A stretch of DNA of 64,000 nucleotides from contig NZ_JXZC01000001.1 of NCBI RefSeq assembly GCF_000935355.1, positions 248,001-312,000 on the forward strand, given 5' to 3'. Positions 2,377-5,825 of this stretch are shown here, one piece after another. How positions within the stretch are numbered: position 1 is the stretch's first letter; every line of letters starts with the position of its first letter. Position numbers and translations under genes: made by a program. The stretch is from Rossellomorea aquimaris (GTDB taxonomy: Bacteria > Bacillota > Bacilli > Bacillales > Bacillaceae_B). The notes under the pieces are model-generated. The model was not told the DNA's origin. It saw only the letters and a program-made list of their open reading frames with translations, and ran no database searches.

Positions 2377-2526
2377 TTCATCTACCCCTTATTAAAGATG
2401 CTTACGTTAAATACGATTTAATGTGCAAAAAAGTTTCATATTCATATTCTTATTTTATTGTAAATGAAGGTGAAATGGAAATATTGTACCCATTTTTATT
2501 ACCCAGGCTGAAAAAGTTTACAGGAA

Positions 2527-3850: not shown

Positions 3851-4612
3851 TCATTGACTTTCTTGTTTTTCTAAAGAGGGTTGATGATGATAAAGAGTCT
3901 TACCAATCAGCGTTTGTAAGATGAGAAATGCCCCTCCAGCTGTCCAATATAGGGGTAAGGCGGCTGGTGCATTAAATGAAAAAATAAAAATCATAATGGG
4001 CGAAAGATAGCTCATTATTTTTATTTGGGCCTGCTGCTCTGCAGGCATATTTATTAAAGATACCCGAGCCTGGGCTAAATAGACCACCCCAGCGATAATG
4101 GCCATAATATAATTCGGCTGCCCCAAATTAAACCATAGAAAGGAGTGGCTTGCGATTTCAGATGATGACCGGATTGCATAGTATAACCCGATCAATATGG
4201 GTGTTTGAATTAACAAAGGTAAACATCCCATATTAAGAGGATTCACTCCATGTTTCTGGTAAAGCATCATCATTTCTTTTTGCAGTTTCATCTGCTCATC
4301 TTTATCATTCGCTTCTTTTATCTTTTTTTGAATTTCCGTCATTTCTGGTTTGATTAAAGCCATTTTCCCTTTCATCTCTTGTTGATTTTTATACGTGTTA
4401 AGCATAAATGGAAGAAGAATGAGACGAATAAGAAGTGTAATGACAATGATCGCAAGTCCAAAGTTTCCACCCAGGAAGGTCCCTATTTCATGGATGAGAA
4501 ACGAAAATGGGTTAACAAGATAGTCGTGAAAAAACGCTCCCTCAGTTGTTGCACTTTGACACCCTGAAAGAGTTAATAGTGACAAGAGCATGATGAATGT
4601 AATTTTTTTCAA
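3851..4612 (-). CDS. yidC2: YidC/Oxa1-family membrane protein insertase (YidC2, YqjG-type)
   Basis: A 253-residue Gram-positive-type YidC with a lipoprotein signal (LLTLSGC, lipobox Cys18) and five predicted membrane helices. It carries the cytoplasmic hairpin rich in Lys, Glu and Gln between helices 1 and 2, and NPLNMGCLPLLIQTPILIGLYYA-type sequence in the core. It inserts membrane proteins with or without SecYEG. The start is TTG at 4612, eight bases after a strong AGAGGAGG SD. That SD is buried in a 12-bp hairpin directly after a MifM-like leader gene. By analogy with B. subtilis mifM-yqjG, this should be the inducible second insertase, made when the primary YidC (SpoIIIJ) falls short. Confidence 0.93.
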   Translation of the reverse strand: MKKITFIMLLSLLTLSGCQSATTEGAFFHDYLVNPFSFLIHEIGTFLGGNFGLAIIVITLLIRLILLPFMLNTYKNQQEMKGKMALIKPEMTEIQKKIKEANDKDEQMKLQKEMMMLYQKHGVNPLNMGCLPLLIQTPILIGLYYAIRSSSEIASHSFLWFNLGQPNYIMAIIAGVVYLAQARVSLINMPAEQQAQIKIMSYLSPIMIFIFSFNAPAALPLYWTAGGAFLILQTLIGKTLYHHQPSLEKQESQ

Positions 4613-4620
4613 TGATTATT

Positions 4621-4665
4621 CCTCCTCTGTATAAATGCTTCATGATTAGAAACATACAGAAGAGG
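4621..4665 (-). promoter_or_regulatory. SD-sequestering stem-loop of the mifM-yidC2 switch
   Basis: On the minus strand, bases 4665-4654 pair with 4632-4621 in a 12-bp stem containing one G-U pair; a further G-U can extend it. The 3' arm contains the whole yidC2 SD. The 5' arm lies inside the last codons of the leader peptide gene (Ala-Ser-Ser-Val-Cys). A ribosome stalled on the upstream acidic codons would cover the 5' arm and free the SD. This layout matches the mechanism known for B. subtilis mifM-yqjG. Confidence 0.8.
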
Positions 4666-4927
4666 CTTCGTCGTCATTATCGGTATGATAAAATTGAAAT
4701 TTCATGCATGCAATGAACCTCAGCCCTATAGGAATAATCTTATTCGCTGTAACGCACGTTACAATGAAATTTGTTCTTTCGAGGCTCTTATCATAAGGTC
4801 GTACGTATAAATGATATATTCCAGGAAAATGATCCAAAATCAAAGCTATTATAAATAGAAATACTATACTAAAATGTAATGGGCTTAAGTAAAAATCTAT
4901 AAAGTCTTGTATAATGATAAATGTCAA
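4646..4927 (-). CDS. mifM: MifM-like regulatory arrest peptide (sensor of membrane insertion)
   Basis: A 93-residue leader protein just upstream of yidC2 on the same strand. The start is TTG at 4927, chosen because an AAAGGAG SD lies 9 bases before it and because the length then matches the 95 residues of B. subtilis MifM. An in-frame ATG at 5035 has no comparable SD. It has one strong membrane helix (about residues 18-36), a basic linker, and a C-terminal acidic run DNDDE (83-87) followed by ASSVCF. B. subtilis MifM stalls ribosomes on its own C-terminal acidic cluster. Overall sequence identity is low, as expected for arrest peptides, so the call rests on position, architecture, acidic C-terminus and the SD hairpin. 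Confidence 0.78.
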   Translation of the reverse strand: MTFIIIQDFIDFYLSPLHFSIVFLFIIALILDHFPGIYHLYVRPYDKSLERTNFIVTCVTANKIIPIGLRFIACMKFQFYHTDNDDEASSVCF

Positions 4928-5098
4928 TGGAGAAGACTCCTTTAATTTACTGATCAAATGTATTGTTGAATCATAAACTCTATTCCATTTAAAGTATACT
5001 GCTAAATGGAAAAAGAAACTATGGTAATTGTACATACGAATATGTCAACAATAGGTTTCACAATAATATAATCTTATAAAATAGGGATGTTATACAGA

Positions 5099-5476
5099 AT
5101 GAAATACTTATTAGTCGGCATTGGTGGAGCATTAGGAAGTTTGTGCAGGTGGGGAATAAGTTATCACTGGACCATTCAAAGCGGGTTACCGTTCGCGACC
5201 CTAACGGCGAATCTCTTGGGAAGTTTCCTACTAGCCTATTTCTATAGTCAATGGTCTGCTAAATATGAAAAATCGTATTTATTTATAGCTTCAGGGTTTT
5301 TAGGCTCTTTTACAACTTTTTCTACACTGAGTATCGAGTTAGTCACCTTTTTAATAGAAAAACAATTGGTTCTATTCTTCGTGTATTTTGCCTTTACTTC
5401 TATAGGTGGCCTTCTATTGGCTTGGACAGGTTATGTAGCAGGAAGAAAAAGAGGGAGGCTTGTTCATGGAGATTAA
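5099..5476 (+). CDS. crcB: Fluoride exporter/channel FluC (CrcB), first copy
   Basis: A 125-residue CrcB/Fluc protein with four hydrophobic helices and the family motifs GGALGSLCRW near the N-terminus, TLTANLLGSFLLAY and GFLGSFTTFST. Fluc proteins form dual-topology dimers that let fluoride leak out of the cell. The ATG at 5099 is preferred over 5087, because the AGGG SD directly abuts 5087. The gene overlaps the second crcB copy by 11 bases, so the two are translationally coupled and probably make a heterodimer. No fluoride riboswitch motif is visible in the short upstream gap. Confidence 0.93.
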   Translation: MKYLLVGIGGALGSLCRWGISYHWTIQSGLPFATLTANLLGSFLLAYFYSQWSAKYEKSYLFIASGFLGSFTTFSTLSIELVTFLIEKQLVLFFVYFAFTSIGGLLLAWTGYVAGRKRGRLVHGD

Positions 5477-5825
5477 CATACTTCTAATTGTATTGGGCGG
5501 AAGCTTGGGGGCTATTGGACGATACCTGGTTGCAAATGGCGTTAAAAAATGGAGTAGTTCCAGTTTTCCGAAAGCGACCCTACTAGTTAATGCGATTGGT
5601 TCTTTACTATTAGGGTTATTGGTTGGAAACGGTGCTGGAGAGACCGCCATGTTCTTTATCGGGGTCGGTTTGTGTGGGGCATTTACCACCTTTTCAACCT
5701 TTATTTGGGAGACGATAAGCCTTCTCCGACAAAATATGAAAATGGGCCTATTTTATTTCTTTGGCAGTCATATCATTGGAATCATATTTGGAGCGACAGG
5801 GTACATCTTGGGTATGGCAGCTTAG
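5466..5825 (+). CDS. crcB: Fluoride exporter/channel FluC (CrcB), second copy
   Basis: A 119-residue CrcB paralogue with four membrane helices and the motifs GGSLGAIGRYL, TLLVNAIGSLLLGLL and GLCGAFTTFSTF. The ATG at 5466 is chosen because AGGGAGG ends seven bases before it; a TTG at 5460 is too close to the SD. It overlaps the end of the first copy. In many Bacillaceae, fluoride channels come as such pairs with opposite membrane orientation, each pair forming one functional heterodimer. Confidence 0.92.
   Translation: MEINILLIVLGGSLGAIGRYLVANGVKKWSSSSFPKATLLVNAIGSLLLGLLVGNGAGETAMFFIGVGLCGAFTTFSTFIWETISLLRQNMKMGLFYFFGSHIIGIIFGATGYILGMAA

Follow-up and report, generated by a model that had tools for sequence, protein, structure and literature searches.

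The reading frame directly upstream of yidC2 in the analysed stretch of Rossellomorea aquimaris DNA (64,000 nucleotides, here called the window) very probably encodes a MifM-family monitoring substrate that switches yidC2, in an operon behind a promoter of SigW consensus. MifM is the YqzJ protein of Bacillus subtilis, a 95-residue leader of yidC2/yqjG. Judged by sequence comparison, the leader described here is a new member of this known family, diverged at the place of W73. We infer that its translation undergoes arrest, that the arrest depends on YidC, and that SigW is used by the leader-yidC2 operon. An earlier note on this DNA had proposed a MifM-like switch; at the level of sequence, the proposal is supported by the conserved frame, acidic run and hairpin, by selection on codons 66-87, by co-occurrence with yidC2 (27/27 genomes with the gene vs 0/9 without it), and by profile homology. 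The SigW-type promoter upstream of the leader was missed in that account of the locus.

Table 1. Features of the leader-yidC2 locus in window coordinates.
Feature	Position	Strand	Basis or remark
SigW-type (ECF) promoter, TGAAAC-N16-CGTAT	5034..5060	minus	-35 at 5060-5055, -10 at 5038-5035; exact match to the published motif
Conserved AGCAGTATACTTTAA block, possible second -10 box (TATACT)	4989..5003	minus	15-locus alignment
Leader Shine-Dalgarno, AAAGGAG	4937..4943	minus	Sequence
Leader, putative MifM type	4646..4927	minus	93 codons; TTG start 4927, stop TAA 4648-4646
Leader membrane helix, about residues 14-31	4835..4888	minus	Hydropathy; limits are our reading
Arrest-type region, residues 66-87	4667..4732	minus	pN/pS and register to MifM 71-90
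DNDDE, leader residues 83-87, closing the arrest-type region	4681-4667	minus	
Hairpin 5′ arm	4654..4665	minus	Within leader codons 88-92
Hairpin 3′ arm	4621..4632	minus	Contains the yidC2 Shine-Dalgarno AGGAGG (4626-4621)
yidC2, membrane protein insertase, lipoprotein-like N-terminus	3851..4612	minus	TTG start 4612; PF02096, E 4.3e-44

The 93-residue frame with its TTG start, AAAGGAG Shine-Dalgarno (SD) sequence, one helix and C-terminal DNDDE, all given in the earlier note, was re-found in the sequence. Hydropathy analysis showed a single hydrophobic segment, with a maximum of 2.3 over 19 residues, ahead of a predicted soluble tail that leads to the acidic run. The searches of Pfam and NCBIfam assigned the leader to no family, and the Rfam search returned nothing at the gathering score. 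A start at the ATG of 5035, which would give a 129-aa frame, was rejected, as the extension is not constant across loci and this ATG falls on the -10 box of the ECF promoter. The genome contains two YidC genes in all, yidC2 and one further YidC. Two adjoining CrcB genes (5087-5476 and 5460-5825, plus strand) are divergent from the leader and presumably encode a two-subunit fluoride exporter. The window also contains three consecutive genes of GerA, Spore_permease and GerAC type (10702-6927, minus strand), which form a spore germinant receptor operon.

The genus sample comprised 36 congeneric (Rossellomorea-type) genomes, 27 with a YidC2-type match and nine without. A leader of 93-98 aa was present directly upstream of yidC2 at all 27 loci; with the start taken as the one with the best SD, 25 begin with TTG and two with GTG. 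A search with the window leader recovered 24 of these leaders at E ≤1.4e-10; those of G013, G014 and G027 are too diverged for this search and were located by position. The leader search in the nine genomes lacking yidC2 gave nothing in two and E values of 0.02 or worse in seven; G016, one of the nine, is 84% complete. The earlier note had suggested an alignment of the upstream regions in relatives and had counted a frame without conservation there as evidence against the switch. This comparison was run, and the frame was kept at the 27 yidC2 loci, together with the acidic run and the hairpin.

In total, 124 yidC2 loci (27 genus, 97 other) were collected as the best search matches and are not a random sample. 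The counts below cover 97 leaders, consisting of the 27 genus leaders and 70 other Bacillales leaders of 85-105 aa. As 68 of these 70 were picked by a rule requiring neighbouring acidic residues, the acid conservation among the other leaders is partly by choice. The 27 loci omitted include, by our reading, 16 with a leader of other length or start and 11 without a leader. The leaders of a further set of 48 loci stand outside all counts but one, the check for SigW motifs over 600 nt. At five loci (L171, L172, L173, L175 and L177), the C-termini of the yidC2 leaders (84-101 aa) follow a different plan (RK.P.KE...DEE), and the 600 nt upstream of yidC2 include a strict SigW-type motif.

A 12-bp hairpin with the yidC2 SD as its 3′ arm, as claimed previously, was found at the positions in Table 1. 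Its arms form 12 pairs, one of them G-U, and the 5′ arm spans the second base of leader codon 88 to the first base of codon 92. RNAfold over 84 nt gave -23.4 kcal/mol (z of -4.7 vs 50 dinucleotide shuffles), with the yidC2 SD fully paired. The leader had been described as ending inside the 5′ arm; this holds for the last codons, while the stop codon lies in the loop, and the description therefore needs a small correction.

The hairpin was counted at the 85 of 97 leaders with a recognised in-frame yidC2 SD, the 12 without one being dropped. The SD was paired (≥0.6) with a partner upstream of the leader stop at 25/26 genus loci and 53/59 other loci. In genus and other loci alike, the 5′ end of the partner was a median of 17 nt ahead of that stop. 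The folding z was -2 or below at 23/26 genus and 42/59 other loci. In a rough control of 33 window genes with strong SDs, the same SD pairing was seen in 13. Across 20 genus loci, the 12 hairpin pairs were kept in 91.7% of cells, vs 44-71% when slid. Covariation in the genus hairpin was not significant (44/500 shuffles reached the score, 20 genus loci); the SD leaves little room for it. At L085, L088, L090 and L092, the last 60 nt before yidC2 are without a MifM-type leader and share a stretch ending CCTG(C/T)nnnnCAGGCGCAGGAGG, where a hairpin adjoins the yidC2 SD. This stretch appears to be a control element different from the MifM-type leader.

Selection was assessed by Nei-Gojobori counts over four leader segments in three groupings of 6 (the window group), 11 and 21 loci. 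Codons 66-87 had pN/pS values of 0.14, 0.04 and 0.19, respectively, the lowest of the four segments each time. The pS of codons 88-93 was 0.24, 0.08 and 0.28, against whole-leader values of 0.24, 0.48 and 0.58; the synonymous rate was thus low in the two wider groupings, where these codons are held at the DNA level, as the hairpin arm predicts, and was not lowered in the window's own 6-locus group (0.240, equal to the whole leader). All 21 leaders with a length of 93 aa have D83 and an acidic residue (D/E) at both 85 and 86.

These results bear on two other explanations of the locus. Since the hairpin overlaps the last leader codons, every ribosome that translates them would open it transiently, which favours plain translational coupling, in which translation of the leader melts the hairpin without a regulated arrest and the peptide sequence matters little. 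We consider it improbable, as purifying selection is strongest on codons 66-87 in every grouping and the plan of helix and acidic run, with a W-to-acid spacing of 13, recurs in MifM and in all 12 Trp-bearing leaders of the genus core defined below. The helix is conserved too (pN/pS 0.07, 11-locus group), which could also be expected of an independent small membrane protein beside a hairpin that is incidental or an RNA thermometer. This reading is very improbable given that the leader was found only beside yidC2 (27/27 vs 0/9 genomes), that the pairing of the SD with the leader end recurs in the other genera at the frequency given above, and that the last codons show little constraint as protein (pN/pS 0.95, 21 loci).

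The relationship to MifM was examined with sequence profiles, with the MifM reference sequence read from PDB 3j9w. A genus profile was built from the 24 'core' leaders (all genus leaders except L038-L040). Compared with the 70 leaders of other genera, it gave a score of 38.3 and a probability of 93.7. When the columns were shuffled 200 times from residue 41 onward, the highest score was 25.8, and 200 shuffles confined to the final 29 columns gave at most 27.5; none reached the observed score. The C-terminus alone scored 23.1, which 0/200 shuffles reached (at most 14.4). A repeat of the genus profile against 41 outside leaders gave a probability of 91.2. In searches of the PDB, MifM ranked first with profile A1 (20 Bacillales leaders, the window leader included; E 0.008), and second with profile A3 (41 leaders without the 24 core leaders; E 0.0037), behind a galanin receptor (0.0026). 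The PDB searches with the window leader alone and with the genus profile A2 (24 leaders) found no MifM up to E 10. On the outside profile, the window leader alone scored 6.7 bits, a value reached by 404/960 partly shuffled core leaders.

In the window leader, the register is ungapped from the W73 place to D89 of MifM. The W73-to-D86 spacing of 13 in MifM is the same in 12/12 Trp-bearing core leaders, two of L038-L040 and 18/70 others; among these 70, 35 are without Trp in range and 17 have a different W-to-acid spacing. By the transitive profile chain from genus to outside leaders to MifM, the leader appears homologous to MifM, and the proposed family membership draws on this chain together with position and anatomy; the case is indirect but consistent. 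The leader had previously been called nearly unrelated in sequence, a description that the profile chain replaces with that of a homologue that has diverged while keeping the register.

The critical residues published for MifM are R69, I70, W73, I74, M80, N81 and D86-D89 (PMC7897499, PMC4423224). The window leader has R70 at the W73 place, F71 at I74, K76-F77-Q78 at R79-M80-N81, and D-N-D-D at MifM 86-89 (N at the E87 place), and R69-I70 are without an aligned counterpart. A list of this kind, read as a test of membership, would exclude the window leader. We treat it as specific to B. subtilis and not as family-defining, because the other Bacillales leaders vary at these places too. The W73 place is most often Trp (32), Arg (17) or Gln (12) in the 70 other leaders, and Trp (12), Arg (11) or Leu (1) in the 24 core leaders. 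At residues 68 and 70 of the core leaders, R68 with W70 occurs in 12, G or V68 with R70 in 11 and G68 with L70 in one, such that an Arg two residues before the W73 place accompanies Trp in 12/12 and Arg in 0/11. On the tree, all W73-place labels require five changes, with many forks weak. The R79 place is Lys in 24/24 core leaders and Arg or Lys in 64/70 others. The M80 and N81 places are mostly basic in the others (Arg or Lys in 52/70 and 53/70, respectively), and B. subtilis MifM is unusual in this sample.

On the ribosomal side, F85 and M90 of uL22 are reported to be needed for, or to modulate, MifM arrest (PMC4423224). All 30 genomes checked have both residues, and in 23 of them the surrounding 27-residue stretch is identical, in Trp and Arg types alike. 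No uL22 change compensating for Arg at the W73 place was found in these 30 genomes.

The promoter assigned to the operon matches the SigW motif TGAAACN16,17CGTA, extended to CGTAT (PMC2375139). The strict motif (CGTA) was present within 200 nt upstream of 22/27 genus leaders and 20/70 other leaders, the latter falling in eight further families, and was missing there from 5/27 and 50/70. It was found in 0/97 cases on the opposite strand and 0/97 in the first 200 nt of the leader, and 100 dinucleotide shuffles gave means of 0.00 (genus) and 0.02 (other) loci, at most 0 and 2. With a relaxed motif (one TGAAAC mismatch, spacer 15-17, 250 nt), the counts were 24/27 and 25/70, against a background of 22 sites on both window strands (0.04 per 250 nt). 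The genus loci without the relaxed motif (L034, L035 and L037) are close relatives. SigW is encoded in the genome (TIGR02948, 346.8 bits vs a cut-off of 243.1), and its gene is preceded by TGAAAC-N17-CGTATA. Genome-wide, TGAAACN{16,17}CGTAT occurs 21 times vs three for the reversed control; across the 36 genomes, the range is 18-34 vs 1-5. The window has one other strict SigW-type site (2411-2438, minus strand, TGAAAC-N17-CGTAT), which precedes a Halogen_Hydrol (PF10112) and TelA (PF05816) pair (genes 2376-1747 and 1729-590); a site like it lies near yidC2 in G003 and G004.

At the 21 genus loci with the N16 form, likeness was 0.83 in the spacer, 0.77 for the 49 nt after the site and 0.50 for the 25 nt before it; the identities of the -35 and -10 boxes, which anchored that alignment, were not counted as evidence. 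This pattern supports a conserved control region in which this promoter is not singled out, as TTCACA and TATACT elements are also there. The AGCAGTATACTTTAA block reads TATAAT in L032, and no good -35 was seen for it. A sigma-A match over the ECF site was rejected, its TTGACA being found only in the window among 15 aligned loci. Shuffles gave promoter-like matches in this region at the same frequency (mean 6.5, vs 7 in the sequence).

The SigW-type site may itself be unused: sigma A could transcribe the operon from conserved elements that overlap the site or lie downstream of it, or a different ECF factor could do so. In the window, TTGACA-N16-TACCAT overlies the site, and a large part of the genus retains the TTCACA and TATACT elements. 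Other ECF factors exist in the genome, since 21 stretches match the model of the SigW family with E ≤0.001. We regard this possibility as doubtful, although it is the most probable of the alternatives considered: TGAAAC-CGTA recurs in diverged loci where other elements have changed (L032, L033 and L038-L040, as well as the 20/70 other loci), and CGTC, the SigM form, occurs at the -10 of 0/97 leaders.

In the mechanism we propose, a SigW-type factor would yield more leader-yidC2 mRNA under envelope stress, and translation of the leader would test whether its own helix gets inserted. Rapid insertion of the helix by YidC would release the stalled ribosome, whereupon the hairpin would re-form and YidC2 would stay low. 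Where insertion capacity is short, the ribosome would stay at about codons 83-89, covering the 5′ arm and freeing the yidC2 SD; were D86 to occupy the P site, this arm would begin 7 bases on, within the ribosome footprint. The promoter would add a second condition, such that mRNA would rise in envelope stress and YidC2 would follow only with insertion limiting. All steps from arrest onward are transferred from MifM, as presented in the introduction to PMC6037786. More broadly, we lean slightly towards the view that the mifM-yidC2 operon acts as an AND-gate of a SigW-type sigma factor and a MifM-type arrest across many Bacillales families, and that Arg at the W73 place also supports arrest in this genus, with the uL22 tip unchanged.

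Few arrest peptides that sense membrane insertion are understood; MifM is among them, and most work on it concerns a single species. The loci collected here form a natural mutational series in which Trp, Arg or Gln stands at the W73 place and M80-N81 are often basic, while the basic residue at 79 and the acidic run are kept; such a series points to the arrest contacts that may differ between species. If the SigW-type promoter is used, it would join envelope stress to insertase supply, with the prediction that yidC2 needs both signals. The part that appears new is the stress-sigma promoter on a mifM-type operon, a dual control without a report in the literature searched. The search found no paper placing yidC2 or mifM under SigW, which is weak evidence given that most subscription journals lie outside its coverage, and nothing combining Rossellomorea with YidC. 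In the accessible part of PMC6827917, YidC1 of B. subtilis is tied to SigM-driven membrane-protein load and yidC2 is described as MifM-controlled.

A MifM cluster of 572 sequences from 592 Firmicutes genomes has been described (Fujiwara et al. 2024, PMC10987492), in whose text the words 'sigma' and 'promoter' are absent. The cluster shares with the window leader the position before yidC, an acidic run within residues 70-100 and an N-terminal localisation signal; DNDDE at 83-87 falls within the range near residues 75-95 given there for the acidic run, and the helix-to-acid distance is about 55 by our count vs a reported median of 54. In its proposed function, the leader also resembles SecM and VemP, as well as ApcA and CliM, which precede yidC genes; these four are described as localisation-monitoring arrest peptides that free a downstream SD, and their arrest sequences differ from that of this leader. 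The promoter is like those of the B. subtilis SigW regulon in its TGAAACN16,17CGTA motif with the extended CGTAT (PMC2375139). Unlike B. subtilis MifM, the leader starts with TTG, has Arg at W73, F-Q at M80-N81 and N at E87, and has no aligned R69-I70. Like MifM, it precedes yidC2, is of similar length (93 vs 95 residues), and has one N-terminal helix, a C-terminal acidic run, an SD-hiding hairpin over its last codons, an ungapped W73-D89 register and a uL22 with F85 and M90.
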